Translations under genes and position numbers: made by a program
The notes under the pieces: model-generated
The model's input: the letters and a program-made list of their open reading frames with translations, nothing else
Database searches by the model: none
Told to the model about the DNA's origin: nothing
NCBI GenBank assembly: GCA_951802425.1
Contig: OX637797.1
Span: forward strand, 4,278,001-4,342,000
Origin: Clavaria fumosa
Lineage: Eukaryota > Basidiomycota > Agaricomycetes > Agaricales > Clavariaceae
Direction: 5' to 3'
Length of the DNA: 64,000 nucleotides
Part shown: positions 11,313 through 57,704 of the stretch, one piece after another
Layout: each line of letters starts with the position of its first letter
How positions within the stretch are numbered: position 1 is the first letter of the stretch

Positions 11313-14028
11313 GATGGATGCACTTCGTTTCCCAAAATTGAATGGGCAGAACTACGCTAGTTGGGCCGTGTACATGCGCTCTACACTACAGTCCAAGTAT
11401 CTGTGGTCAGTAGTAAAAGGAAAAGAGGTTTGCCCGACAACCCCAGCCCAGACGTCCGACGAGACAAACACCCCTAGTACCGAAAACCTCGCATGAATCC
11501 AGACCCTCATTGATGAATGGGAGTCCAAGGACGAGGCTGCCCAAGGATTGATGTATAGCTCAAGCGACGAGTCGCAGTGGCCGCACGTTGCGGACTGCAA
11601 AACTGCAATGGAGATGTGGAATGCCTGGAAGCAGGTACACCAAACGAACCAGCAGTCCATTAACGTCTTCTACCACATCAAAGAGTTGTACACACGAAAA
11701 TATGAGGACAGAACGTCTATGACCAATCACATCGCCGCTATGCTTAGTCTGCGCCAGCGTATCATCAGTGCTGGAGGAACCATCGACGATCTTCAGGTCG
11801 CTCAGGCGTTGATTCTGTCCCTGCCTGAGACACCTAGCTGGGAGATCATTACTGTGCAGCTTATCCATGCAGAGAAACTCACCTTGGATGCTGTTAGCAC
11901 GAGATTGCAGGCAGAAGCAAACCGCCGCCTTCACGACAAAACTGGAGGACAGACAGCCTTGCAGGCGACGTCGAAGGGAAGGAGAGGTCGCAGCGGGAAT
12001 CCCAATCGCGATTCCAACACAGAAGGAGGTCAGAAACAGACTAGGCACGGCCCCCAACCCGACAACGAATGTAGATACTGCAAAGGCAAAGGCCACTGGG
12101 CAAATCAATGTCCACGACGAGAAGGAGATGAAAAGGGGATGAACACACGCTACGATTCAGCCAACACCGCGGTCGATGATCTGCAGGACTTGGGAGCCCG
12201 CGAAGTTGGACGGGTGTTTCTTGCTGCGGGACCGCGTACCAGCGCAGGCGTTATTCTCGATTGTGGAGCCACCGCTCACATGTTCTGGGATAAGTCATTC
12301 CTCGTAACTTATGCCCTTTCAACGAATCAGAAGATTTCTGTTGGCGATGCACGAGACATACCGGTCGACGGTGTCGGAAGTATCTGGCTACGAGTCAAGC
12401 TCCCAAATGGGTACTGAACGGTTACACTCCACGGGGTCATGCACGCATCGGGACTCGCTATGAACTTGGTCAGTCTTAGTGCGCTTCAAAAGGAAGGAGC
12501 ACAATACTGCAGTACGGCCAATGGCCTAGTTGTCACCTTGGATGACAAGGAACTCATGCATGGGAGCCTGAGCGAGGGACTTTATCGGATCGATTGCACA
12601 CCCACGGGGACTCAGGCTGCCTACGAAGCATCGTCCGGTGTGAGTTTGAGGGTTTGGCATCGATGGATGGGCCACCTGCACCTCGATGCGATTCATGAAT
12701 TGTCCAGGAAAGGAATGGTGAGAGGACTCACCATCTCATCTAGTGACCACGACCGTGTGTGCGAAGGCTGCGCAGTCGGAAAATCCCATCGTCTACCACT
12801 CCCAAAAGAAAGTGAAAGGCGCTACGAGCGTATGGGACTCGTTGTTGCTGACCTTACTGGCCCTATGTCTGTCAAAACCTGGTCTGGGATGTCATACGCA
12901 CTCATAGTGGTGGAGGTCAGCTCACGATTCGGAGTTGCCCGTCTCCTACGCTCAAAGGACGAGGCCCCCAACGCACTAAAAGAGGTAATTGCAATGTTAG
13001 AAACTCAATCAGGGCAGAAATTAAAGAAATTGCATACCGATAACGGAACCGAACTAGTCAACAGCAAAGTGGACGACCTCTGTAAACGGAACGGAATCAT
13101 ACACGAGACCACAGTTCCCTATGGCCCTGAACAGAATGGAATAGCTGAGCGGTTTATTGCGACATATTTCGAAATGGTTAGATGCATGCTTCATTCATCG
13201 GGGATGGACTTACGTTATTGGGGGGAGTCTTTCATGTACTCAGTGCATATCAGAAACCTTTCCCCGACATCGTCGTTGTCCGGGATGGTCCCCTATCAGG
13301 CCTGGACAGGCCGGAAGCCCGACATATCGCACTTAAGGGTCTTCGGATCCATCACATATGTTAACATCCCGAAGAAAATCCGTGGTGGAAAGTTGGAAGT
13401 GACATCGGCAAAATGTTCTCTATTAGGTTGGTGGGCCGATGAAACAAAAGGTTATCGTCTGGAGGAATTGGAAACAGGAAAGTTGCTCACCTCTAGAGAT
13501 GTTCGCTTTGTCGAAGATATGCACCCCAGCAACGAGTCCACAGTCGAAGGGGATCCTCCAGGCTTACCTAGACCTCAACCGACAATGACGACTGATCCTC
13601 AGACGCAGACATCACCCGACAAACTCACCCCGACGCACTATGACGATGAATCAGTGATGATCAAAACAGTGGGAGAAGGAGTCACCCCTACACAGACACC
13701 CCACCCTCAAAGGAACCTTCCCACCGACTACGGCATTCACCTGTGCAATTCGGGGAGGAAGCTACTGCAGAAGAAATCGAGAGGGCTGTGGAAGACGGCA
13801 ATGAGCAAGCGTTTATGGCCATAAACAGTGAGCCACGCACTTACAAAGAGGCCATGCGCACTGCGCAGGCCAAGGAGTGGGAGAAGGCGGTCTCCACCGA
13901 GCTCAAGCAGCTACGAACATCCGGTACCTTCAAGTGGGTTCCGAAGGTCCCAGATGGGCGGAAGGCCATTGGAAGTTGCATTGTCTTTCAGACCAAGAGG
14001 AACGGAGATGGGAAGGTCGTCAGATATA
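11313..14028 (+). pseudogene. Copia gag-PR-IN (outer element), disrupted
   Basis: The start at 11313 is chosen by alignment with the inner element (MDALRFPKLNGQNYASW). Gag ends in a CCHC knuckle, CRYCKGKGHWANQC. Protease has LDCGATAHM. The integrase zinc region has the form H...H...CEGC, and the catalytic acid positions are VADLTGP, HTDNGTE and PEQNGIAE. In-frame TGA codons lie at 11494 and 12415, and a frameshift lies near 13735. After it the N-terminal part of the RT region (RFGEEAT-like, then WVPKVP...GSCIVFQTK) continues to the nested insertion. Both stops sit where the sister copy suggests an arginine (CGA-type) codon. Confidence 0.88.
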
Positions 14029-14363
14029 TTTCAACAGCGCAGGTGCACCAGCGACAAAGCTGGAGTTCACGCGGTAAGAGAGAGAACGCATGTATTAGTA
14101 TAGAATAAGTTATAGGGTAGACAGAATAACTGACCTGGAGTTCACGCGGTAAGAGAGAGAACGCGTGAACTCCTACGGAACGAATCAACTGTATAAGTAC
14201 TACTATGGGTAAACTATGGTTCATTGTTCATAAGAAACAAAGGAAGAACGAAGGAGGAAGGGTGGCACTACGATGCGGCGCATCGTGTGCCGCTGTTCTC
14301 TGTAGCGAGCCGAGCCGAGACGAATAGGTAGCGGTGCGACGGCGAAGCGTACTCACTTCGTCA
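14029..14363 (-). repeat. 3' LTR of inner Copia
   Basis: 335 bp, nearly identical to 18509-18844. On the minus strand it starts TGACGAAGTGAG and ends GCGCTGTTGAAA. It contains the paired GTTCTCTCTCTTACC...GTGAACTCCAG repeats. Confidence 0.92.
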
Positions 14364-14381
14364 CTCCCACTCGTCGAGCCG

Positions 14382-17300
14382 TCACTCTTCAATGACCCCG
14401 ATTGCGGTACGAAACCGCTCGAACAAATCTTGTGGGAGCAGTTTTGTAAGGATGTCCATGATCATTCTCGTCATTGGACAATACTTAAACAAAATTTCAT
14501 TGTTGGCAATCCGTTCGCAAAGGAAGTGGTGGCGGATATCGATGTGTTTCGCTCGCGAATGGGCCACAGGGTTTTTCACAAGTGCAATACAGCCCTGGTT
14601 GTCGGCGTTGATGACGTAGCGGTATGCTGGGGGAATCCTAGATCAGAAAGTAAAGAGCGCAGCCAGATGGCCTCTTTAGTCGCATTCGCCAATGCCATGT
14701 ACTCAGCTTCCACGGTGGACAACGCAATGGTAGGCTGCTTCTTCGAGGACCACGAAATCGTTCCACCAGCGACGTCAAAGATAAATCCCGCGACGGACCG
14801 TCGGTCAGCGAGGTCTTGGGCCCAGTCAGAATCCGTCCAGCCGACGAGGTCGACACCGTCGTTTTTGCCACCCAAGACAAGGCCGAAGTCGATCGTACCT
14901 TTGAGATAACGCAGGATGCGTTTCAGGGTGACAAGGTGCGATTTACCAGGATTCATCCCAAACTGTGCACAAGTATTCGTCGCATACTGAATGTCCGGGC
15001 GGGTCTGTGTAGCATAGAGGATACCTCCGAGACACTCTAGGTAGTTGAGGCCTGTGGCGAATTCGTTGTACGATGCACGGTCAACATCAGAGGTGGGGCA
15101 ATTGTTGGCGGATATTTGTTCCTTGATGGTTGCTGGCGTAGCAACGGGTGTGGCACCATCCATGTGGTAGCGTGTGAGCAGAACTTGGATATAAGCGGAT
15201 TGGTCCAATATCGGATCGTTCGGCTTGTACGGTCCCGTTGGACCCTGATTCCCAAGATGTGTTTCAGTTCGCCCAAATCAGTAATCTGAAACGCTTTCCC
15301 AAGCTCCTCCTTGAACCATCTCATGCTGTTCATCTCCACTGCGGTGACTACCATGTCATCCATGTATACCAGCACTAACACCTCTACGCTCCTTTCCTTT
15401 CGTCGGACATAGAGACAGTCGTCGGCGGGGCTGCTGGAGAAGCCCAGTCGTCCCATCGTCTCTCCCAACTTCACTTTCCACTGCCTACCGGCTTGCTTGA
15501 GACTGTAAAGTGGCCTCTTGAGTCTCCAAACTCGCTTATCGTCATTGTTGGTACGTGCTCTGTCCGGTGGTTCCAGATATATTTCCTCTTCTAAGTCTCC
15601 TCTTAGGTACACTCCCACGACGTCGACTTGATGAAGAAACCAATCTTTGCGTGCGGCCATCGACAGGAGAGCTCGTAGGGTGGTCAGACGTGCGACGGAT
15701 GCAAAGGTCGCGGTGAAGTCCTGGCCCGGTATCTGTGAGTAACCTTTAGCTACCACCCTAGCCTTGTGTCTGACAATCTTTCCGTTGCCATCACGTTTGG
15801 TCTGGAAGACGATGCGGCTCCCTATCGTTTTTCGTCCTGCAGGGACCTTCGGCACCCACTCGAACGTTCCAGAGGTGCGTAGCTGCTCAAGTTCCGCAGC
15901 TACGGCCTTCTCCCACTCCTTCGCATGCGCCGAGCGCATCGCTTCTCGGTACGTTCGCGGGTCCCCATCCCTCACAACAAAAACGTGCTGATGTCCTCCT
16001 CTGACAGCTTCTTCAACTTCTTCGGTTGTGGCCTCTTCTCCAAATCGTGCAGGCAGTCGTCGTACACGAGTGGAACGCTCTCGAAGGGGTGCAGGATCAG
16101 TGCGTGGTAATGCAGGTGAGTTACCTCCCACTGGTTCAAGCATCTCTGATCTTTCTTCGTCCTCTATAGTACTGTCATCGTCTCGGCGAACTCCCAGCAG
16201 ATCTGAGGCCCCCGTCGACGGGCGCTCCGCTTTGTTCTCGATAATGGCAACGTCCGTTGGCCTGTCGTCCTCGATAACACGTACATCCCTTGCAGTTATT
16301 AGCTTCTTTGTTTCTATATCCTCAAGGCGATATCCTTTAGTCTCGTCAGCCCACCACCCCAGTAGGCGACATTTCACTGCCGTTGCTTCGAGTTTCCCCC
16401 CTCGCACCTTCTTCGGGATGTTCGCATATGCGGTCGATCCGAAGATTCGTAGGTGCGAGACGTCTGGTTTCCGCTTGGTCCATGCCTCGTAGGGAACTTT
16501 GTCGGCCATAGCGGCTGTCGGGGAGAGGTTTCTGAGGTGTACGGCGTACATCAGTGCTTCCCCCCAGTACCATGAGTCCATACTATTTGAATGTAGCATG
16601 CATCTAACCATTTCAAAACATGTAGCCATAAACCTTTCGACAATACCGTTCTGTTCTGGGCTGTACAGGACAGTCGTCTCGTGGCGGATGCCGTTGCGAC
16701 GGCAGAGGTCTTCTACCTTGTCGTTGACGAGTTCCGTGCCATTGTCAGTGCGTAGTCGTTTCAATTTCTGTCCAGATTGCCTCTCTAACATTGCGATTAC
16801 GTCCCTTAGCTCTCCGGGCGCCTCGTCTTTGGTCTTCAAAAGGCGTGCGATGCCGAATCTCGTGCTGACTTCGACAGTGACGAGGGCATAACGCATCCCT
16901 GTCCATGTTTCGACGGCCATAGGCCCAGTTAAGTCCGCAACTGCCAATTCCATCAGCTCATAACGTGTTTCGCTCCGTTTTGGGAACAGCAAGCGGTGTG
17001 ACTTTCCAAGAGCGCACCCCTCGCACACACGGTCGTGATCACTAGATGAAATCGTAAGTCCCTTTACCAGCTTCTTTCGAACGAGTTCACGTATCGCCTC
17101 GAGGTGTAGATGTCCCATACGTCGGTGCCAGGTCCGCATACTGGCGCCGGAAGATACCTCGTAGGCGGCTGGGGCCTCGGCGCGAGTGCAGTCGACGCGG
17201 TAAAGTCCCCTCACCAGCTCTCCGTGCAGAATCTCATCTTCTCCCAGCAATACTACCAGTCCACCAGTTGTACTTCGGTAAGACACTCCATCGTCCTGAA

Positions 17301-17625
17301 GCGCACCAAGACTAATCAGGTTCATAGCAAGTTTTGGGACATGCATGACGCCGTGCAGTGTCGTCGTACGGTGTCCGCTGGGGACTCTAACCCTCAGCCA
17401 GACGCATCCGTATCCTGCAACAGGTATGTCGCGAGCATCTCCGACCGATACCATATGACCACTTATTCGCTTGTAGGATGCGAATAGTGATCTGTCGCAG
17501 AACATGTGGGCCGTTGCCCCACAATCAAGAATCACGCCGGCGTTGAGGCAGGGCTTCGTAGCCATGTAAACGGAGCCAGCTTCTCGTGCGACGCCGTCCG
17601 GATGGTCGCACGTCACTGCGTGCAC
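14382..17625 (-). pseudogene. Copia pol (inner element): PR-IN-RT-RNase H with two frameshifts
   Basis: From 17625 leftward: protease LDCGATAHM, the integrase zinc region with CEGCALGKSH, catalytic positions VADLTGP, RTDNGTE and PEQNGIVE, then RT with YMDDM and an RNase H domain (TDSDWAQD, STVEAEYMA). A two-base insertion near 15208-15211, judged against the outer copy, shifts frame in late RT. A second frameshift near 14640 breaks RNase H, whose end (SRAKHIDIRHHF) is in another frame and stops at 14382. The integrase and most of RT remain open over more than 800 codons, so decay is recent. Confidence 0.92.
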
Positions 17626-17627
17626 GG

Positions 17628-18468
17628 ATACTCGTCCATGTGAGTGTCCTTGTTTGTTATCGTCCTGTTCAGCGTTCGGACACTGATTCCCCCAATGACC
17701 AGTCTCTTTGCACTTCCAGCAGACGTCGTCGGGTTGCGGACCACGGCCACGCTTGGCCTTCGCTCGGTTTTGCTTTTCTCTCAGTCCGTTACCCTTCTTG
17801 CCTTTCCCCGACGCCTGAAGAGCGGTTTGGCTTCTGCCAGGCTTCTCTCGTGCGCATCAGTTGGCCTCCGTCTGGAGCTTTGTGCTTACTATATCAGAGG
17901 TAAGCACCTTGATGTCAAACAACTGTATTTTGATCATCTCCCAGGATGAAGTCTTCGGTAACGACAAGCTCATCGCGTGGGCTATGTGTAGATCGTCGAG
18001 CACTTCGCCGGCCTGGACTATTCGATGTCGGATGTCGAGGATAGCGGCTATGTGGTCGGCCATCGGTGTGCCGTCCACATATTTCCATGTGTACAGCTCC
18101 TCAAAGAAATAGTGCATGTTGATTAGTTGCTGGTTCATCTGGTGCACTTGTTTCCATATGTTCCAGTTCCACATGTCTTTTGACATTTCACAGCTTGTGA
18201 CGTGTGGCCACTGAGATTCGTCGGTCGCGCTGCGCATCAAGCCTTGTGCGGCACCGTCGCGAGTTACCCAGTCGAGGTACTCGCGCAGCTTTGTCCGATA
18301 GTCCTCGGTTGGTGCGGTTTCCGGTGATGGGTCAGCTGGTTTGGCGGGGCAGATCTCAACGCCGGTTACGACTAACCATAGGTACTTGGCCTGCAGCACG
18401 GACTGCATATGTATGGACCAGTTCGCGTAGTTTTGCCCATTCAACTTTGGAAATCTAAAAGCGTCCAT
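17628..18468 (-). pseudogene. Copia gag (inner element), one TGA
   Basis: Starts MDAFRFPKLNGQNYANW at 18468, equivalent to the outer gag. The frame closes at a TGA (17857-17859) after QTEAN, where the outer copy reads QAEANRR. Beyond the stop, a CCHC knuckle CWKCKETGHWGNQC is still encoded near 17675-17720 before the protease region. Confidence 0.85.
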
Positions 18469-18496
18469 TGTAGCCGAATCCAGCTGACCGTTGCCG

Positions 18497-18508
18497 GGTC
18501 TCATAATC
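18497..18508 (-). promoter_or_regulatory. Primer-binding site of inner Copia
   Basis: Minus-strand GATTATGAGACC lies immediately next to the 5' LTR (18509-18844), identical to the outer element's site. This fixes the LTR boundary. Confidence 0.72.
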
Positions 18509-18844
18509 TTTCAACAGCGCAGGTGCACCAGCGACAAAGCTGGAGTTCACGTGGTAAGAGAGAGAACGTGTGTATTAGTATAGAATAAGTTATAGGGTAG
18601 ACAGAATAACTGACCTGGAGTTCATGCGGTAAGAGAGAGAACACGTGAACTCCTACAGGAACGAATCAACTGTATAAGTACTACTACAGGTAAACTACAG
18701 TTCATTGTTCATAAGAAACAAAGGAAGAACGAAGGAGGAAGGGTGGCACTACGATGCGGCGCATCGTGTGCCGCCGTTCTCTGTAGCGAGCCGAGCTGAG
18801 ACGAATAGGTAGCGGTGCGACGGCGAAGCGTACTCACTTCGTCA
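18509..18844 (-). repeat. 5' LTR of inner Copia
   Basis: 336 bp, the direct-repeat partner of 14029-14363, differing at a small number of positions. Several of the differences are CG in one copy and TG/CA in the other (GTTCACGCGG versus GTTCACGTGG). Confidence 0.92.
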
Positions 18845-18849
18845 ATATA

Positions 18850-19783
18850 AGGCAAGAGTCGTTGCGAAAGGCTACTCACAAGTTCCAGGCCAGGATTTCG
18901 AAGCCACCTTCGCATCCGTCGCATGTCTAACGACGCTCCGAACCCTCTTGGCCATGGCAGCACGAGAGAACTGGGTCGTCCACCAAGTTGACGTTGTTGG
19001 AGTGTACCTGCGGGGTGACCTCAATGAAGAAATTTACCTAGAACTGCCTGAAGGTGCAAGTACGAATGAAAATGACAGGCATGTATGGCGACTTCGCAGG
19101 CCACTCTACGGCCTGAAGCAAGCCGGAAGACAATGGAAGTTGAAGTTGGGGGAGATGATGAAGCAGCTAGGATTTACCAGCAGCCCCGCTGATGACTGCT
19201 TATACGTGAGATGTGTGGAGAAGGGAGCGGAGGTGTTGGTACTGGTTTATGTTGATGACATGGCTGTGGCAGCAACGGACGTCCGCAGTGTGGAGTGGTT
19301 CAAGGCAGAGCTTGGGAAAATGTTTCAAATTATTGATTTGGGAGAGCTGAAACACATACTAGGAATCCGGATCAAACATGACCACACTGCTCGAACGATC
19401 CGATTGGACCAGTCGGCTTATATTCAGGTACTACTCACATGCTTTGGCATGGAAAATTCCACACCTGTAGCAACGCCTGCTGCTGTCAAGGAACGACTTA
19501 CTGCTTCTGATTGCCCACTTTCTGAGGCCGACCACTCATCGTATGACCGCTTCGCAGGGGACTTTGGGTACCTCGAATGCCTGGGAGGCATCCTCTATGC
19601 AACTCACACCAGACCAGACATCCAGTACACGACGAATGCCTGTGCACAATTCGGAGCTAATCCTGGGAGGCCACACCTCATTGCACTGAAGAGGATTCTC
19701 CGTTACTTGAAGGGTACAATTAATCATGGCCTTGTCCTAGGTGGCAGAGGTGACGGTATCGATCTTGTAGGGTGGACTGACTC
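18850..19783 (+). pseudogene. Copia reverse transcriptase (outer element), continuation after the nested insert
   Basis: Continues the outer pol as KARVVAKGYSQVPGQDF, then the RT signature FASVACLTTLR, the YVDDM active site and the RARPDIQY-like region (HTRPDIQYTTNACAQF). The open frame is uninterrupted up to LVGWTDS, where RNase H begins. There the sequence jumps to inverted LTR at a GACTCAAACAGC junction, so RNase H is lost. Confidence 0.9.
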
Positions 19784-19901
19784 AAACAGCAAAAGGAGTC
19801 CATCAACAGCGGGAGGCAAACCGACAGTCACGAGGCGTGGATCCAGCTGGGCGGGAGTGCGGATCCGGTCGAGTATGGGCGAGGCATATGTTCATCGTCA
19901 A
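19784..19901 (-). repeat. Inverted partial Copia LTR
   Basis: Reverse complement of 10985-11102 with few differences. It ends TTCATCGTCA, the terminal TG...-type end of the outer LTR. It replaces the missing 3' end of the outer element in the wrong orientation for a normal 3' LTR. Confidence 0.85.
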
Positions 19902-20116
19902 ATGGGAGTGAAGTGACTGCTGATAGGGCTGAGTGGGCATGTTGTGAGACTGCAGCCAAATCGGGGAAATTATGTAAGCGGGCGCCTTTACTGCCGCGCG
20001 TCTAATCCCACACTCAGCTGTCGTGGCTGAGTATCTTAACAGTCCTTACAGCTTTTTTCCAACTCATCCACTCGCTGCAAAACTTCTTGCCATACATACT
20101 GCGTCGCTCAACAGCG
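19902..20116 (+). promoter_or_regulatory. Probable upstream region of the CRN-kinase gene
   Basis: About 215 bp of CpG-containing sequence with pyrimidine-rich stretches (CTTTTTTCC near 20050) before the chosen ATG. No clear TATA box. A Copia remnant ends immediately upstream, so the native promoter may be truncated or supplied by repeat sequence. Confidence 0.35.
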
Positions 20117-36722: not shown

Positions 36723-37356
36723 GTGGGATCACCCCCTTCAGCACACCCACCCCCTATCCAAAAGGCCCAGCCGATTTTGACTGATGCCCTTTTTATGGGC
36801 CCAGCCGATCGTCGGCCGAGATATAGCTTTATAGGCTTGGCCGATCAACTTGATATACCAAAATCCTGCCAGGCATACAGGGATCCCATGGTAATGATGA
36901 TACCCTTTCAAAAGGGCTGGCTGACACCCATTTTAGGAACCAGTGTAGAGGGTCTGAAGCACCCTATTCAAACATTTCTCTCACTTACATGACAAATTAG
37001 ATCAAAAAAGCTGGGGATAAAGCATATGCACAAGATTAGGAAGCAAAGATCAGATGTGCTATTTGATAGACATGTATATTACAAGGTCATCTGCATCATT
37101 TGAGACTCCTTATCATCTGAGACTCCTCCATGACAACTTAACATAGTTGGGTGAGATGAAAACCAATATGACTTCCAATAGGTCCTCAAAGGGTAGAAGC
37201 AAATGTACCAATCAAATATGCAATGGAGCCATTATAAACTAGAGTGAAATGTGGTTGTCAACTGAGTCAGGATATTCTTTGGAAAAGGATGGGCCTTAAT
37301 ATCCTTTCTGAAGAGTATTCAAATCCACTTTGAATATGTGTTCTAAAGGAGAATGT

Positions 37357-37745
37357 ATTGTTATTGTTCAAATATTCTTGCAATGTAGAAGTTGTGCATG
37401 TGAGTCTGTTATCACACCTTGTGATTATATCATTCTGTGGCTGTGCCCGGAATCCCGGGTGTGACAGTCACACTGTGACCAACTCTGCATATTAGTATTG
37501 TTCAGATATCCTTGCATTGTAGAAGTTGTGCATGTGAGTCTGTTATCTCACCTTGGGATTATATCATTTTGTGGCTGTGCCCGGGATCCCAGGTGTGACA
37601 GTCACACTGTGACCAACTCTGCATATTAGTATTGCTCAGATATTCTTGCATTGTAGAAGTTGTGCATGTGAGTCTGTCATCTCACCTTGGGATTATATCA
37701 TTTTGTGGCTGTGCCCGGGATCCCGGGTGTGACAGTCACACTGTG
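37357..37745. repeat. 137-bp tandem repeat, three units (left arm)
   Basis: Each unit runs from TATTGTTCAGATATCC through GTGGCTGTGCCCGGGATCCC to GTGTGACAGTCACACTGTGA. Units contain the palindromes CCCGGGATCCCGGG and GTCACACTGTGAC. Confidence 0.85.
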
Positions 37746-38184
37746 ACCACAACTCTGGATCTGCAACTCATATCCATAACTACCAGGGCAGGGCAAGTAC
37801 AATGATTGGACAGAGGGGAACAAGGTGTGAAGACATGTTCAGAGAAGGAAGGACTACTGTATCTGTAACTACAAGGGCACAACAAGAACATATCCAAGGC
37901 TGGGGAAGGCATCTCAGAGAGGGTGATGAGTGTTGAGAAGGGGTGGTGTCAGCACTGACAGAGCCATCACACTCAAACATTCTTTCATTTACTTGTGTCT
38001 ATAGTAGTCTCTTTGTGTTTACCTGCCCTCCTCTCCTTGTATTTACCTACCAGTTTCTACATCATATACACCCTGGGGCTCTTGAGCATGAGCCAGGGAT
38101 CACTTTATGACTTATTGCACATGGACAGCAGAACATAGGATGATTTGACACTTGAGATTATTTGAAAGGATGCTGCTGGCCCAC

Positions 38185-38202
38185 TTAGGGTTAGGGTTAG
38201 GG
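38185..38202 (+). repeat. Interstitial telomere-like (TTAGGG)3, left arm
   Basis: Exactly three TTAGGG units, the canonical telomere repeat of most fungi, inside the palindrome arm. Mirrored at 44768-44785. Confidence 0.85.
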
Positions 38203-38941
38203 CAGATAAACTGCAATAGATTCAGCAATAGATTCAGGGTGATCTCTTATACCATATTCATTTGTCAAAGCTAATCCACAAGTACAAATTAATTACAACA
38301 AATCAAAAGAAAAACATGTCTGGCATTTACATCAGAGGATGGGTGGCCAAATCCACCTCCGACAAGCCATTCATATGATAATATGTGCTTCATTGCAAAG
38401 GGGGCACTGCAATCTAGGCAAGCCCCACTTCACCAAAGCAAGAGTCCCCAGTCTCAAGTAGATAAGATGATCTGTAAGAAACTAGGGTGGGAGGACGCTA
38501 ACCACATGGCAGTCAGCAGTCCATCCCAGAGCCCATATGGCAACCCCAAGGTATGAGCAGCAGATAGCACAAAAAAACTTACAAAGATGGGGTTGGGGGA
38601 GGTTGTCTTGCATAATAGACCACACTCACATCCTTGGCCCATTTGGCCACCCCAGGTGCAGGTATGAATGAGGGTTGGTTGGGGCCAGCCTGCATATAAG
38701 CTGCCACCAAACCAAAAGGCCCATATGGCCACCCTCTTCACATAACATTCTGAAAAGCAACATCAACGAGCACCATACCAGTAAAAAGTGTGAATAGTAA
38801 TAAAACCCACATACCTCTGCAGGTGTCAAGCTCATACAGACACCTGAAGGCAGACAAGAGCAGCATTCCCTGTATGGCACTGCAGTTGCCACACAGAGAA
38901 TGCTGCCCTTGTCTGCCACAAACCATAAGGTGGACATGGCA

Positions 38942-40515
38942 GCACAGGAAGGGCGGTGGGCAGCAGGGCAGCAGGCAGGGCAGCAGGTGGGCAGGGCGGG
39001 GCAGCAGGTGGGCAGGCGAGGCAGCGGGTGGGCAGGCGGGGCAGCGGGCAGGCAGGCGAGGGAGCGGGTGGGCAGGCGGGGCAGCGGGCAGGCGGGGTGG
39101 GGCAGCGGGCAGGCAGGGCGGGGCAGCGGGCGGGCGGGGCAGCAGGTGGGAAGGCAGGGCTGCGGGCAGGGCGGGGTTGCAGGCGTGCAGGCGGGGCTGC
39201 AGGAGGGCAGGGCGGGGCAGGGCGGGGCAGGGCGGGGCGGCGGGTGGGCAGGGCTGCGGGGCTGCGAGGCAGCAGGTGGGCAGGCAGGGCTGCGGGCAGG
39301 GCGGGGCAGGGCAGCGGGCAGGCAGGGCACGGCAGCAGGCAGGCAGGGCGGGGCAGCGGGCAGGCAGGGCGGGGCAGCGGGCAGGCAGGGCGGGGCAGCG
39401 GGCAGACAGGCAAGGCAGCGGGCGGGCAGGGCGGGGCTGCCAGGCAGCGGGCAGGCAGGGCGGGGCAGCGGGTAGGAAGGCGGGGCAGCGGGTGGGCAGG
39501 CGGGGCTGCGGGTGGGCAGGCAGGGCTGCGGGCAGGGCGGGGTTGCGGGCGAGCAGGCGGGGCAGCGGCCAGGCAGGGCGGGGCAGCAGGCAGCAGGCAG
39601 GCAGGGCAGCGGGTGGGCAGCGGGTGGGCAGCGGGTGGGCAGCGGGTGAGCAGTGCGGGCCAGCGGGCCAGCAGGCAGGCGGGGCAGCGGGCAGGCGGGG
39701 CAACGGGTGTAGAGGCGGGGCAGCGGGCGGGCAGGCGGGGCTGCAGGAGGACAGGGCGGGGCAGCGGGCGGGCAGGCGGGGCTGCAGGAGGGCAGGGCGG
39801 GGCAGGGCGGGGCGGCGGGTGGGCAGGGCTGCGGGGCTGCGAGGCAGCGGGCAGGCAGGCAAGTCAGTGGGCGGGCAGGGCGGGGCTGCGAGGCAGCGGG
39901 CAAGCAGGGCGGGGCAGCGGGCAGCAGGCAGGCAGGGCAGCGGGTGGGCAGCGGCTGGGCTGCGGGTGGGCAGGCAGGGCTGCGAGCAGGGCGGGGTTGC
40001 GGGCGAGCAGGCGGGGCAGGGCGGGGCGGCGGGTGGGCAGGGCTGCGAGGCTGCGGGTGGGCAGGCGGGGCTGCGGGCGAGCAGGCGGGGCAGCGGGCGG
40101 GCAGGCGGGGCTGCAGGAGGGCAGGCGGGACTGCAGGAGGGCAGGCGGGGCTGCAGGAGGGCAGGGCGGGGCGGCGGGTGGGCAGGGCTGCGGGGCTGCG
40201 AGGCAGCGGGTGGGCAGGCAGGGCTGCGGGCAGGGCGGGGTTGCAGGCGAGCAGGCAGGGCGGGGCAGCGGGCAGCAGGCAGGCAGGGCAGCGGGTGGGC
40301 AGCGGGTGGGCAGCGGGTGGGCAGTGCGGGCCAGCGGGCCAGCAGGCAGGCGGGGCAGCGGGCAGGCGGGGCAACGGGTGTAGAGGCGGGGCAGCGGGCG
40401 GGCAGGCGGGGCTGCAGGAGGGCAGGGCGGGGCAGCGGGCGGGTAGGCGGGGCTGCAGGAGGGCAGGGCGGGGCGGCGGGTGGGCAGGGCTGCGGGGCTG
40501 CGAGGCAGCGGATGG
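38942..40515. repeat. GC-rich minisatellite (left arm)
   Basis: About 1.57 kb built from GGGGCAGCGGGCAGGCAGGGC-like 20-24 bp variants. It is very G-rich on the plus strand and keeps many CpGs, unlike its flanks. Frames of 200-640 codons open on both strands because the repeat lacks stops; they translate to Pro/Ala/Arg or Gly/Arg/Ala strings and are not genes. Confidence 0.88.
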
Positions 40516-40857
40516 GCAGGTGCAGCAGAGGATGTTCCACCATGTTTGTTTGGTGCTCACTGTTTAAAGTGTTTCAACATTTGGCTCTGTTTGTTCATGT
40601 TGATATGTCATGTGACTCTGCCCAATGACACAATCACAAGCCTTTTCTTGGCCCTGTACTCAGGCCAGGCTAGAATGGGAGGATTTTATGTACTAGGTTC
40701 TATATGATGTGATAAGCTAGAGTCTAGATGTGGGTGCCAAGAGAGGATGATACAAACAAAGGCCCAGAGCTGCTTTTGGTAAGCTGCTATGACTGTGGGA
40801 AGAAAATTGCATGGCTTGCAAAATATGACTTTTTATACACCAAAAAATCAGCAAAAA

Positions 40858-41193
40858 TCAGGAGATTCTGAATCTGGATACCTCACATTTGTACCTGCCT
40901 TGGTTCAGTGTCAATTCGCAAAATACACATAAAATATTCATTTTCCACAATTCTGCAGTACTCTGCAGTACTCTGGCTTGAAAATGGTTAGTGGAGGATA
41001 CACACATTACCTGTAGACATATGGGGAGGGTGTAGATTAGTTTAACAACCCACCCACGATCTCTGTCACCTCCCTGGAATCCATTACTAGGAATTAGGGT
41101 TATTGGCCTGGGAGCATGGCTATTTGTTATATTGCAAATTCCAGCCATCAGACTACACCCTATGACATCTAATACAATCATACACAAGCCCAT
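40858..41193 (-). other. 111-codon open frame duplicated in both palindrome arms
   Basis: A frame starting at ATG (MGLCMIVLDVIGCSL) occurs identically at 41644-41979 on the plus strand, next to the centre of the palindrome. It has no recognised domain. Identity between copies follows from arm identity, so it is not evidence of selection. Listed only because it is the longest non-repetitive frame in the element. Confidence 0.25.
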
Positions 41194-42305
41194 AATATTT
41201 GGTGCAGAACTACAGATTCCCCATGTCTATTTTCCCAAAATTCTCAAAATCTCTCCCCAGATAGCCCCCTTTGTCAAATCACATATTCCTGTTAGCAAAT
41301 AGTTCACAATGTGTACATGAAGACATGTTCAAAGTTTGGTGAAGTTGGGCCAAGTTCTCAGGAAGATAGCTCAGAATGAGACTTTTGGGAGACTGTCAAG
41401 GTCTTCCTTATCCTCGCCTTCATCTTTGACTTCACTTTAGACTGTCCTCCAGAAGACATATTCTGGGCTATCTTCCTGAGAACTTGGCCCAACTTCACCA
41501 AACTTTGAACATGTCTTCATGTACACATTGTGAACTATTTGCTAACAGGAATATGTGATTTGACAAAGGGGGCTATCTGGGGAGAGATTTTGAGAATTTT
41601 GGGAAAATAGACATGGGGAATCTGTAGTTCTGCACCAAATATTATGGGCTTGTGTATGATTGTATTAGATGTCATAGGGTGTAGTCTGATGGCTGGAATT
41701 TGCAATATAACAAATAGCCATGCTCCCAGGCCAATAACCCTAATTCCTAGTAATGGATTCCAGGGAGGTGACAGAGATCGTGGGTGGGTTGTTAAACTAA
41801 TCTACACCCTCCCCATATGTCTACAGGTAATGTGTGTATCCTCCACTAACCATTTTCAAGCCAGAGTACTGCAGAGTACTGCAGAATTGTGGAAAATGAA
41901 TATTTTATGTGTATTTTGCGAATTGACACTGAACCAAGGCAGGTACAAATGTGAGGTATCCAGATTCAGAATCTCCTGATTTTTGCTGATTTTTTGGTGT
42001 ATAAAAAGTCATATTTTGCAAGCCATGCAATTTTCTTCCCACAGTCATAGCAGCTTACCAAAAGCAGCTCTGGGCCTTTGTTTGTATCATCCTCTCTTGG
42101 CACCCACATCTAGACTCTAGCTTATCACATCATATAGAACCTAGTACATAAAATCCTCCCATTCTAGCCTGGCCTGAGTACAGGGCCAAGAAAAGGCTTG
42201 TGATTGTGTCATTGGGCAGAGTCACATGACATATCAACATGAACAAACAGAGCCAAATGTTGAAACACTTTAAACAGTGAGCACCAAACAAACATGGTGG
42301 AACAT

Positions 42306-44030
42306 CCTCTGCTGCACCTGCCCATCCGCTGCCTCGCAGCCCCGTTGCCCCACCACCCCGCTTTCCTGGCATCCCGCCCTCCCCTCCTGCCAAGCTGCCC
42401 CTGCTCCGCTGCCCCGCTGCCCGCCACCCTGCTGCCCTGACGCCTCACTCCGCTGCCTCGCAGCCCCGCCTGCCCCACCCTGCCCACCCGCTGCCTCGCC
42501 TGCCTGCCCGCAGCCCCGCCTGCCCACCGGCTGCCCCTCCTGCCCACCCGCTGCCTCGCAGCCCCGCCCTGCCCTGCCCTGCCCTCCTGCAGCCCTGCCT
42601 GCCCGCCCGCAGCCCCGCAGCCCCGCAGCCCCGCCCACCCGCTGCCTCGCAGCCCCGCAGCCCTGCCCACCCGCTGCCTCGCAGCCCCGCAGCCCTGCCC
42701 ACCCGCTGCCTCGCAGCCCCGCAGCCCTGCCCACCCGCTGCCTCGCAGCCCCGCAGCCCTGCCCACCCGCTGCCTCGCAGCCCCGCAGCCCTGCCCACCC
42801 GCTGCCCCGCCCTGCCCTGCCATGCCCTCCTGCAGCCCCGCCTGCCTGCCCGCTGCCCCGCCCTGCCCTCCTGCAGCCCTGCCTGGCCGCCCGCTGCCCC
42901 GCCTCTACACCCATTGCCCCGCCTGCTCGCTGCCCCGCCTGCCTGCTGGCCCGCTGGCCCGCACTGCCCACTCGCTGCCCACCCGCTGCCCACCCGCTGC
43001 CCTGCCTGCCTGCTGCCTGCTGCCCTGCCCTGCCTGGCCGCTGCCCCGCCTGCTCGCCCGCAACCCCGCCCTGCCCGCAGCCCTGCCTGCCCACCCGCAG
43101 CCCCGCCTGCCCACCGGCAGCCCCGCCTTCCCACCCGCTGCCCCGCCCTGCCGCCCGCTGCCTTGCCTGCCTGCCCGCTGCCCCGCCCTGCCTGCCCGCT
43201 GCCCCGCCCTGCCTGCCCGCTGCCCCGCCTTCCTACCTGCTGCCCCGCCCTGCCTGCCCGCTGCCTCGCAGCCCCGCCCTGCCCACCCGTTGCCTTGCCT
43301 GTCTGCCCGCTGCCCCGCCCTGCCTGCCTGCTGCCCTGCCCTGCCTGTCCACTGCCCTGCCCCGCCTGCCCGCTGCCCCGCCTGCCCACCCGCTGCCTCG
43401 CCTGCCTGCCTGCTGCCCCGCCCCGCCTGCCCGCTGCCCCGCCCCGCCTGCCCACTGGCAGCCCCGCCTTCCCACCCGCTGCCCCGCCCTGCCGCCCGCT
43501 GCCTTGCCTGCCTGCCCGCTGCCCCGCCTGCCCGCTGCCCCGCCCTGCCTGCCCGCTGCCCTGCCTGCCCACACGCAGCCTCGCCTGCCTGCCCGCTGCC
43601 CGCTGCCCACTGCCCTGCCCTCCTGCAGCCCCGCCTGCCCGCCCGCTGCCCCGCCCTGCCTGGCCGCTGCCCCGCCTGCTCGCCCGCAACCCCACCCTGC
43701 CCGCAGCCCTGCCTGCCCACCCGCAGCCCTGCCTGCCTCCTGCCCACTGCCCCGCCCTGCCTGCCCGCTGCCTCGCAGCCCCACCGCCCTGCCCTCCTGC
43801 AGCCCCGCCTGCTCGCCCGCAACCCCGCCCTGCCCGCAGCCCTGCCTGCCCACCCGCAGCCCTGCCTGCCCACCGGCTGCCCCGCCTTCCCACCCGCTGC
43901 CCCGCCCTGCCGCCAGTTGCCTTGCCTGCCTGCCCGCTGCCCCACCCTGCCTGCCCACTGCCCCGCCCTGCTGCCAGTTGCCCCACCTGCTGCCCCACTG
44001 CCCCGCCTGCCCACCGCCCTTCCTGTGCTG
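42306..44030. repeat. GC-rich minisatellite (right arm)
   Basis: C-rich counterpart of 38942-40515, ~1.72 kb, with a different arrangement of variant units although the sequence on each side is nearly identical between arms. Confidence 0.88.
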
Positions 44031-44228
44031 CCATGTCCACCTTATGGTTTGTGGCAGACAAGGGCAGCATTCTCTGTGTGGCAACTGCAGTGCCATATAG
44101 GGAATGCTGCTCTTGTCTGCCTTCAGGTGTCTGTATGAGCTTGACACCTGCAGAGGTATGTGGGTTTTATTACTATTCACACTTTTTACTGGTATGGTGC
44201 TCATTGATGTTGCTTTTCAGAATGTTAT

Positions 44229-44516
44229 GTGAAGAGGGTGGCCATATGGGCCTTTTGGTTTGGTGGCAGCTTATATGCAGGCTGGCCCCAACCAACCCTC
44301 ATTCATACCTGCACCTGGGGTGGCCAAATGGGCCAAGGATGTGAGTGTGGTCTATTATGCAAGACAACCTCCCCCAACCCCATCTTTGTAAGTTTTTTTG
44401 TGCTATCTGCTGCTCATACCTTGGGGTTGCCATATGGGCTCTGGGATGGACTGCTGACTGCCATGTGGTTAGCGTCCTCCCACCCTAGTTTCTTACAGAT
44501 CATCTTATCTACTTGA
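44229..44516 (+). other. 95-codon open frame duplicated in both palindrome arms
   Basis: A frame beginning MKRVAIWAFWFGGSLY occurs identically at 38454-38741 on the minus strand. It is hydrophobic/cysteine-rich with no known family. Coding status is doubtful. Confidence 0.2.
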
Positions 44517-44767
44517 GACTGGGGACTCTTGCTTTGGTGAAGTGGGGCTTGCCTAGATTGCAGTGCCCCCTTTGCAATGAAGCACATATTATCATATGAA
44601 TGGCTTGTCGGAGGTGGATTTGGCCACCCATCCTCTGATGTAAATGCCAGACATGTTTTTCTTTTGATTTGTTGTAATTAATTTGTACTTGTGGATTAGC
44701 TTTGACAAATGAATATGGTATAAGAGATCACCCTGAATCTATTGCTGAATCTATTGCAGTTTATCTG

Positions 44768-44785
44768 CCCTAACCCTAACCCTAA
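44768..44785 (-). repeat. Interstitial telomere-like (TTAGGG)3, right arm
   Basis: CCCTAA three times, the complement of the left-arm tract. Confidence 0.85.
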
Positions 44786-45214
44786 GTGGGCCAGCAGCAT
44801 CCTTTCAAATAATCTCAAGTGTCAAATCATCCTATGTTCTGCTGTCCATGTGCAATAAGTCATAAAGTGATCCCTGGCTCATGCTCAAGAGCCCCAGGGT
44901 GTATATGATGTAGAAACTGGTAGGTAAATACAAGGAGAGGAGGGCAGGTAAACACAAAGAGACTACTATAGACACAAGTAAATGAAAGAATGTTTGAGTG
45001 TGATGGCTCTGTCAGTGCTGACACCACCCCTTCTCAACACTCATCACCCTCTCTGAGATGCCTTCCCCAGCCTTGGATATGTTCTTGTTGTGCCCTTGTA
45101 GTTACAGATACAGTAGTCCTTCCTTCTCTGAACATGTCTTCACACCTTGTTCCCCTCTGTCCAATCATTGTACTTGCCCTGCCCTGGTAGTTATGGATAT
45201 GAGTTGCAGATCCA

Positions 45215-45760
45215 GAGTTGTGGTCACAGTGTGACTGTCACACCCGGGATCCCGGGCACAGCCACAAAATGATATAATCCCAAGGTGAGATGACAGACTC
45301 ACATGCACAACTTCTACAATGCAAGAATATCTGAGCAATACTAATATGCAGAGTTGGTCACAGTGTGACTGTCACACCTGGGATCCCGGGCACAGCCACA
45401 AAATGATATAATCCCAAGGTGAGATAACAGACTCACATGCACAACTTCTACAATGCAAGGATATCTGAACAATACTAATATGCAGAGTTGGTCACAGTGT
45501 GACTGTCACACCCGGGATTCCGGGCACAGCCACAGAATGATATAATCACAAGGTGTGATAACAGACTCACATGCACAACTTCTACAATGCAAGGATATCT
45601 GAACAATACTAATATGCAGAGTTGGTCACAGTGTGACTGTCACACCCGGGATTCCGGGCACAGCCACAGAATGATATAATCACAAGGTGTGATAACAGAC
45701 TCACATGCACAACTTCTACATTGCAAGAATATTTGAACAATAACAATACATTCTCCTTTA
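45215..45760. repeat. 137-bp tandem repeat, four units (right arm)
   Basis: Reverse-complement counterpart of 37357-37745 with one extra unit, so unit number changed after the palindrome formed or by unequal exchange within an arm. Confidence 0.85.
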
Positions 45761-46381
45761 GAACACATATTCAAAGTGGATTTGAATACTCTTCAGAAAG
45801 GATATTAAGGCCCATCCTTTTCCAAAGAATATCCTGACTCAGTTGACAACCACATTTCACTCTAGTTTATAATGGCTCCATTGCATATTTGATTGGTACA
45901 TTTGCTTCTACCCTTTGAGGACCTATTGGAAGTCATATTGGTTTTCATCTCACCCAACTATGTTAAGTTGTCATGGAGGAGTCTCAGATGATAAGGAGTC
46001 TCAAATGATGCAGATGACCTTGTAATATACATGTCTATCAAATAGCACATCTGATCTTTGCTTCCTAATCTTGTGCATATGCTTTATCCCCAGCTTTTTT
46101 GATCTAATTTGTCATGTAAGTGAGAGAAATGTTTGAATAGGGTGCTTCAGACCCTCTACACTGGTTCCTAAAATGGGTGTCAGCCAGCCCTTTTGAAAGG
46201 GTATCATCATTACCATGGGATCCCTGTATGCCTGGCAGGATTTTGGTATATCAAGTTGATCGGCCAAGCCTATAAAGCTATATCTCGGCCGACGATCGGC
46301 TGGGCCCATAAAAAGGGCATCAGTCAAAATCGGCTGGGCCTTTTGGATAGGGGGTGGGTGTGCTGAAGGGGGTGGTGGGAT

Positions 46382-56040: not shown

Positions 56041-56414
56041 TACACTCGGCCACCCATTCCGATGGACTCCAATGGACTCCAGTGGAGTCCAGTGGAGTCC
56101 AACCAGCTCCATTGGAGCCAACAAGGACTCCATTGGAGCCAGCAAGGACTTTATTGGAGCCAACAAGGAATCTATTGGAGCCAGCAAGGACTCTATTGGA
56201 GCCAACAAGGACTCCATCGGAGCCAGCAAGGACTTTGTCGGAGCCCACAAGGACTCCATTGGAGCCAGCAAGGACTTTGTCAGACTTAGCCAGGAGTCCA
56301 ATGGAATTTCTTCCAGTGGACTCCTGTGGACTCCAGTGGACTCCAGCCACGGACTGGAGTCCACTGGAGTCCATTGGAGCAGTCCCATTGGAGTCCACAT
56401 GGAGTCCAATGGAG

Positions 56415-56545
56415 TCCTAACAACACAGCTGAAGAAAATGTCACCAGCCAGAGTTGAACCCAAATCCTTGTGTCACTTGCACATGCAATTACCAGCTATG
56501 CCATGCAGCCACAGTTATCTTAGCCAAGATAATTCCTATAGGCCC
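56415..56545 (-). mobile_element. tRNA-derived SINE-like unit, copy 1
   Basis: Minus strand: A box TGGCATAGCTGG (56492-56503) and B box GGTTCAACTC (56451-56460), about 43 bp apart as in a tRNA gene. Its sequence is closely matched by the copy at 57225-57365 in opposite orientation. The acceptor stem does not pair well, so it is not a functional tRNA gene. Confidence 0.65.
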
Positions 56546-57224
56546 TTGTCTTGAGCCCTGTGGAGTCCTTAGTAGTCCTGAGGAGTCTGACTGGAGTCCA
56601 TAGGAGTCCATAGGAGTCCTGAGGAGTCCAATTGGAGTCTTGAGGAGTCCAACTGGAGTCCTGAGGAGTCCGACTGGAGTCCTGAGGAGTCTGATTGGAG
56701 TCCTGAGGAGTCCGACTGGAGTCCTGAGGAGTCCGATTGGAGTCCTGAGGAGTCCGACTGGAGTCCTGAGGAGTCCGATTGGAGTCCTGAGGAGTCCAAC
56801 TGGAGTCTTGAGGAGTCCAATTGGAGTCCTGAGGAGTCTGATTGGAGTCCTGAAGAGTCCTGAGGAACTGCACAGAGTCATGAAGTCAATTCTGACTCTG
56901 ATAACTGACTGCAAATACTCCTTGAGACTTTGCCTGCAATCTGCATGGAGTCCTGTAGACTCCAATCAGACTCCTCAGGACTCCAATTGGACTCCTCATG
57001 ACTCCAGTTGGACTCCTCAAGACTCCAATCAGACTCCTCAGGACTCCAATCAGACTCCTCAGGACTCCAGTTGGACTCCTCAAGACTCCAATTGGACTCC
57101 TAAGGACTCCTCAAGACTCCAGTTGGACTCCTCAGGACTCCTCAAGACTCCAGTTGGACTCCACAGGACTCCTAAGGACTCCTAAGGACTCCAGTTGGAC
57201 TCCTCAGGACTCCTAAGGACGCCA

Positions 57225-57365
57225 CAGAGCTCAGGACAAGGGCTATAGGGATTATATTGGCTAAGATAACTGTGGCTGCATGGCATAGCTGGTAATTGCA
57301 TTTCCAAGCGACACAAGGATTTGGGTTCAACTCTGGCTGGTGACATTTGTTTTCTTCCATTATGC
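57225..57365 (+). mobile_element. tRNA-derived SINE-like unit, copy 2
   Basis: A box at 57281-57292 and B box at 57324-57333, followed by GGCTGGTGACA and a short T-rich segment. Homology with copy 1 begins upstream of the tRNA-like part (GACAAGGGCTATAGG...TTGGCTAAGATAACTG), so the mobile unit is longer than the tRNA part. Confidence 0.65.
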
Positions 57366-57704
57366 TTGGACTCCAGTGGACTCCAGTGGACTCCATGCAG
57401 ACTCCAGTGGACTGCAATCCAGTCCAGTGAGTCCAATCACAGTCCTGACACCGTCCAGTGGAGTCCAATCATAGTCCTGACCCAGTCCAATCACAGTCCT
57501 GACACAGTCCAGTGGGACTTGGTTCGGAGTCCTGTGGAGTCCTGAGGACTCCAACTGGAGTCCAAGGAGTCTGACTGGAGTCCGAGGAGTCCAGTGGAGT
57601 CCATTGGAATGGGTGGACCAGTGTAAAGTCTTGGTAGATTTAGGCTATTTAACAATGTTCCATGCTGAACTACTCATTCACCTCTGAGACAACCATCCAT
57701 CACC

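Follow-up and report, generated by a model that had tools for sequence, protein, structure and literature searches.

Fully palindromic foldback transposons with KDZ-type ends and recopied arms in the genome of Clavaria fumosa

The palindrome and its insertion site

The window analysed here is the whole 64,000-nucleotide stretch of Clavaria fumosa DNA (G000:C4:4278001-4342000), and the genome searched comprises 48.8 Mb in 17 contigs. Positions 36730-46374 of the window hold a confirmed palindrome of 9,645 bp in total, with ends that read CACCCCC...GGGGGTG. Self-alignment places its left arm at 36730-41397 on the plus strand and its right arm, the mirror image of the left, at 41440-46374 on the minus strand. 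The initial annotation had described two inverted arms, near-identical outside their tandem repeats, around a centre of about 96 bp, and both points hold: the arm alignment, with tandem repeats excluded, contains 2 mismatches in 2,055 sites, and the asymmetric central spacer (approximately 41373-41464), which is common to the copies described below, measures about 90 bp.

From terminus to centre, the arm consists of segments A, B, C, D and E, followed by half of the core. In the left arm, segment A is the outer 620 bp, which match the termini of KDZ elements of about 26 kb at about 98% identity; segment B is a 134-bp tandem array detected by repeat scan (37362-37749, plus strand); segment C (37750-38940, plus strand) is 74-84% like the interior of a full-length KDZ element; segment D is a GC-rich minisatellite (38941-40520, plus strand); and segment E, 244 bp long (40521-40764, plus strand), terminates in GGCC, which is identical to its own reverse complement. 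Differences between the arms amount to 0/620 in A, 2/1191 in C and 0/244 in E. The tandem repeats of this copy are mirrored yet unequal between the arms: by alignment coordinates, the 134-bp array spans about 400 bp on the left and 534 bp on the right, where it has one unit more (45221-45742, minus strand), and the GC-rich minisatellite spans 1,580 bp on the left and 1,713 bp on the right. The core (40765-42072, 1,308 bp) is itself palindromic (96.6%). Its two halves show 8 left/right differences, 6 of which fall in the final 27 or so alignment columns, and beyond these columns the halves diverge into the asymmetric spacer. A profile scan of the seven longest frames within the palindrome found no Pfam family and no transposase, in agreement with the earlier statement that the palindrome encodes none of its own.

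Elsewhere in the window, a smaller second inverted repeat (56353-57428), composed of a TCCAATGGACTCC-like minisatellite, is 81.8% self-complementary over 1.1 kb, and Copia-type elements in both orientations (11497-19916) are partly mutual inverted repeats at about 69-70%.

The palindrome lies within a Gypsy element, and the 7-bp target-site duplication (TSD) that had been reported, GTGGGAT, adjoins both of its ends (36723-36729 and 46375-46381, by flank comparison). When the flanks are joined over a single GTGGGAT, they match all 40 of the Gypsy places scored, the best 40 of 615 candidates, at 94-97% and contiguously through the junction. This empty site in 40 of 40 scored relatives, together with the TSD on both sides, bears out the view that the palindrome was inserted as a single mobile unit. 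The further claim that excision restores the Gypsy reading frame is compatible with the data rather than decided by them: a minus-strand frame is open for 221 codons at the joined site, versus 2 with the element present, but a plus-strand frame is also open across the join, for 218 codons, so that the frame test is not specific. The palindrome is a real transposon that has been mobile in the past, and, being mostly inverted repeat with internal tandem repeats, it belongs to a known structural class, that of the foldback elements.

A family of same-ended elements

The terminal 19-mer of the palindrome has 83 exact matches in the genome (39 forward, 44 reverse) and its reversed control has 0; with up to 3 mismatches allowed, the terminal 30-mer has 107 matches, again with 0 for the control. 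Facing ends were paired by eye, the remaining exact ends being left unpaired, and 27 pairs were checked for TSDs, of which 19 proved to have perfect 7-bp duplications, 2 duplications with one mismatch, 2 mirrored flanks and 4 none. These pairs comprise nine palindromes, 15 long pairs (about 22-44 kb) and three short ones (650, 3,218 and 5,940 bp). A search for full copies of the window palindrome had thus recovered, on seven contigs, nine palindromes that agree in their ends and centre; perfect 7-bp duplications flank eight of the nine, and the other has a mirrored flank.

A search for an autonomous partner with the same termini led to the elements of about 26 kb, which carry KDZ transposase domains. 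The one element scanned, C1:471029-497255, yielded KDZ (PF18758, 1e-30), CxC1/CxC2 (CxC2, 8.4e-27) and Tet_JBP (1.8e-18) domains in 10 frames, and no P-type domain was found in these frames. Inverted repeats of about 3.7 kb are present in both full-length elements examined, this one and C1:4433524-4460306. Among the matches listed, of 185 in all, at least 13 of the 15 long pairs contain a KDZ match, and none of the nine palindromes does. Since same-ended elements with a KDZ transposase domain are present in the genome, the mobilisation mechanism can no longer be called unknown, as it had been at the outset. The shared ends and duplications make it most likely that the transposase of the 26-kb elements moves the palindrome, which can accordingly be classed as a Kyakuja-like KDZ element that is non-autonomous and palindromic throughout.

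Several other loci of this genome extend the picture of its KDZ complement. The 185 KDZ-domain matches in 48.8 Mb represent a large expansion, with 0 of 14 control genomes positive. A related terminus, CACACCCTTCAGCGTACCCAAACCCC, has facing ends about 34-49 kb apart at C2:1093238-1141268, C2:2580158-2629497, C6:451897-500158, C7:1310593-1351623 and other places; several of these intervals hold, among the matches listed, at least one to three KDZ-domain matches each, and they resemble giant KDZ elements, some of which may have two transposase-like genes. The 5.9-kb element L041 (C10:178886-184825) has the same ends as the window palindrome, a perfect TSD and 1.9-kb inverted repeats, its terminal region being only about 77% like that of the palindrome. 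A search for a single-arm progenitor found L044 (C12:2036368, 3.2 kb). One side of it consists of A-B-C and the opposite side carries a 294-bp repeat; it lacks a TSD and is suggestive of an ancestral single-arm form.

Concerted evolution of the arms

Arms were compared in eight palindromic copies. The ninth, C2:123702-145690, was left out because its right arm is interrupted and its ends alone were retrieved, and the copy at C9:3273191, from which the right segment E, the right half-core and a portion of the left end are missing, is absent from the comparisons of those parts. Within a copy the arms differ at 0-4 sites in 1,731-2,055 (mean 0.08%), while the mean difference between copies is 0.81%, and the arms are sisters in the tree for all eight copies analysed. 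A sum as low as that observed arose in 1 of 20,000 draws when right arms were shuffled among copies, and in 0 of 20,000 when the 16 arms were paired at random. Derived states specific to one copy occur 61 times in both arms versus 13 times in one arm; the lengths of the left and right minisatellites are correlated across copies (r = 0.89, n = 7); and segment B has the same length in both arms in six of the eight copies, at two lengths, 400 and 684 bp. The arms of each copy are rewritten from one another, as the sister-arm clustering shows, and the suggestion of arm homogenisation by gene conversion is thereby upheld.

The sister-arm signal is strong when the full length of the palindrome arm is considered and weak when the comparison is confined to its short terminal part. 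Full-length elements had been expected to show the by-copy clustering of the palindromes, an expectation that held only partly: in the outer 620 bp, supported clustering by copy was seen in two of six, and a recent pair, C1:471 and C1:5225, groups by side, left with left and right with right. Over the same 620 bp, the ninth palindrome (C2:124) has 3 differences from another copy versus 4 between its own arms, and the arms of the copy at C1:3227889-3237919 (hereafter C1:3228) are not sisters.

Copying into host flanks

Mirrored local host flanks occur in only two of the 27 pairs. At C1:3228, GTAGTCT adjoins the left end, and the right end is followed by an exact 43-bp mirror of the left host flank, then by GTAGTCT, and then by unrelated flank. 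This arrangement is explained neither by ordinary insertion nor by copying from a different locus. A break between the right end and the TSD, followed by left-arm copying that ran 43 bp outward and by end-joining, produces precisely this structure, and we regard the 43-bp mirror firmly as a fossil of arm copying past the end of the element. The second case is a full-length element, C1:4638393-4664361 (C1:4638), with a mirrored flank of 64 bp that contains one mismatch and with no TSD left. Its mirrored flank differs at 1 of 64 positions and the outermost 728 bp of its repeat at 10, a near-equal divergence that would be expected if a single event had made both; an overrun of 64 bp is probable here, though less certain than the one at C1:3228.

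Four other accounts of these observations deserve weighing. It is rather unlikely that the arms are homogenised whenever the element transposes, for instance when a single-strand hairpin has snapped back and its mismatches are repaired, instead of at the inserted locus. Sister arms are expected under such a process too, and the recent full-length pair that groups by side looks as if little conversion had followed insertion, but the 43-bp mirror of the local flank at C1:3228 could have arisen only where the element inserted, while it did so or afterwards.

A smaller chance still attaches to the idea that each palindrome was born independently, by inverted duplication of a single-arm element, and that its arms are alike through youth without any arm copying. 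Independent births would equally predict sister arms in eight of eight copies, but all copies have in common the asymmetric spacer of about 90 bp, at 97.9-100% identity across 148-188 aligned bases, as well as the junction between arm and core and the left/right differences beside the spacer, so that eight births at one base are implausible. The single shared spacer argues instead for one origin of all copies, and a single origin, combined with arm copying that fails beside the spacer, gives both the sister arms and the left/right differences shared near the centre.

That the element at C1:3228 simply landed in a pre-existing host inverted repeat is very improbable: such a repeat would supply mirror-image flanks, but ordinary insertion leaves direct 7-bp repeats at both ends, whereas the right GTAGTCT stands where the 43-bp mirror stops, and the full-length C1:4638 has a mirrored flank as well. 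Large palindromes are hard to assemble, but the two possibilities that the initial annotation had set against its own reading, an assembly inversion artefact and a pair of independent insertions, can be dismissed in view of nine like-structured palindromes on seven contigs, eight of them with matching TSDs of their own, of copies that differ in repeat lengths and copy-specific variants, and of the existence of empty sites.

The core and nested ends

A genome search with segment E and the core returned 225 candidate places, the best 40 of which were scored; they comprise the nine palindromes and 31 places outside them where only the core is present, at 87-97% on whichever strand matches better. 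Twenty of the 31 were fetched (L050-L069), and in 19 of these mirror symmetry extends past the core, from about 24 bp to at least about 400 bp, the fetched limit; the exception, L054, is a partial core without further symmetry. These places are flanked differently from the KDZ palindromes: a single 30-bp flank is common to most of them, L050 has a different one, and further outward the flanks are of several kinds, minisatellite arms among them. Because the spacer aligns in all 11 core-only places tested and the flanks differ, a single palindromic centre carries multiple kinds of symmetric flank. On a plain reading, the core would belong to the interior of a distinct palindromic repeat family and would have been acquired by a KDZ element. 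A core that started the palindrome and a core that landed at an existing centre of symmetry would be indistinguishable, since the GGCC end of segment E is self-complementary. At L059-L068 (for example C1:4867075-4869186), the core is flanked in mirror by TAGTTGTAGATGTAGTGAAC-like short tandem repeats, over kilobases by their coordinates.

Mirror-image flanks are also found around three elements with CACTCCC ends (L070-L072), and in the wider flanks of two of them, on C6 and C1, the mirror extends as far as another set of related ends, CACACCC. On C6 the CACTCCC ends lie inside the CACACCC ends at a distance of 889 bp on both sides, and the outer ends are bordered on either side by GCCGTCA; on C1 the distances are 889 and 1,220 bp, the right side having one extra 331-bp unit, and the corresponding seven bases do not match. 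The pairing of outer with inner ends recurs near C2:3951k (at 1,256 and 889 bp) and near C2:3758k (at 558 and 558 bp). The GCCGTCA on both sides of the outer ends indicates that the nested set at C6 was mobile as a larger unit. Mobilised overruns would look like these nested ends, and nested insertion followed by conversion would also produce them. We put forward only tentatively, and with more doubt than confidence, a general scheme of self-templating palindromic transposons, in which a break at an end may lead to recopying of the arm, and overruns may mirror neighbouring DNA, build onion-like elements and pass the core between transposons.

Proposed mechanism

Taken together, the observations are best read as those of a non-autonomous palindromic KDZ element that is moved by a partner, that had a single origin, and whose arms are recopied after end breaks with an occasional overrun; to this joint reading we assign a probability of roughly 0.75. 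The first palindrome would have arisen by symmetric duplication around the 1.3-kb central palindrome, and all copies descend by transposition from this single ancestral palindrome with its single asymmetric spacer, moved, as we suppose, by the transposase of the same-ended elements, which are about 26 kb long. A break at one end of an element, possibly a transposase cut made there alone, would then free an arm to fold back on or invade the opposite arm, to copy outward and to be resealed; the position of the break is what suggests the transposase as its maker. Copying sometimes passes the terminus into the host flank before end-joining, as the mirror at C1:3228 shows and the one at C1:4638 probably does. 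We infer that the partner transposase is the mover, that the cut is one-ended, that the core had a role at birth and that growth proceeds layer by layer, and we hold firmly to the identity of the element, its insertion, the shared origin of the copies, their concerted arms and the 43-bp case.

The persistence and growth of very long inverted repeats have usually been argued by analogy, and dispersed copies of a single palindrome provide replicates for studying them, while the mirrored host flank past the end of C1:3228 directly records arm copying at an insertion site. The proposal connects the ends of transposons with the repair of breaks and the maintenance of palindromes, and it suggests a route by which new ends could come about.

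Comparison with known systems

KDZ elements that bear Tet_JBP have been described from fungi (Kojima 2025, PMC12730594). According to the portion of that account considered here, TET-positive Kyakuja elements, like the present ones, combine a KDZ transposase with a Tet_JBP gene, 7-bp TSDs and 5'-CA..TG-3' ends, and the elements studied here likewise have CA..TG ends and 7-bp TSDs (perfect in 19 of 27 pairs and with a single mismatch in 2). The two Kyakuja families of Laccaria are described there as having no terminal inverted repeats, whereas the two full-length elements examined here have repeats of 3.7 kb, and, unlike what that description gives for Laccaria Kyakuja, the non-autonomous form is a complete palindrome. 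On account of the 3.7-kb repeats we call the elements Kyakuja-like, by their TSDs, ends and Tet_JBP, and not Kyakuja. KDZ1-KDZ3 of Cryptococcus neoformans, in the sections of their report drawn on here (PMC12810828), also have a KDZ transposase and were shown moving in culture; they differ in their size of about 9-11 kb, inverted repeats of 139-241 bp and TSDs of 4-8 bp.

The length of the arms, which the initial annotation had set above that of most foldback elements, has a counterpart in copy 112 of Galileo from Drosophila willistoni, reported as 9,021 bp long with inverted repeats of 4,246 and 4,680 bp and no transposase (PMC4168063). As far as the excerpted accounts go (PMC4168063, PMC3573991), Galileo, of the P superfamily, shares with the present family very long inverted repeats, 7-bp TSDs and transposase-less two-arm copies; its repeats hold tandem repeats and other transposons, and the two repeats of a copy are 98-100% identical, for which conversion has been proposed. 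This similarity is a resemblance and not membership: Galileo has a P-superfamily transposase, whereas the 10 frames of the partner gave KDZ and no P-type domain; the extension proposed for Galileo recruits internal sequence inward, whereas here host flank was copied outward; and copy 112 is described as a single copy, whereas nine palindromes here have one common centre. In the portions of the open-access literature searched, we found no description of such outward capture of host flank, no paper in which the terms searched for palindromic transposons and gene conversion all occur together, and no comparable palindrome described in the KDZ superfamily.

Palindromes of sex chromosomes likewise undergo arm-to-arm gene conversion, but those described in the parts of the reports consulted (PMC6790999, PMC7023750) are single chromosomal loci and not mobile elements. 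The foldback element Tetris of Drosophila virilis is, like the elements described here, non-autonomous, with long inverted repeats and internal tandem repeats, but its repeats reach at most 1,735 bp, its middle domain varies in size, and its autonomous partner was not found there (PMC4079207). The window palindrome is thus of a known kind, the foldback transposon, and what appears new in it, within the literature searched, is the fully palindromic KDZ form.
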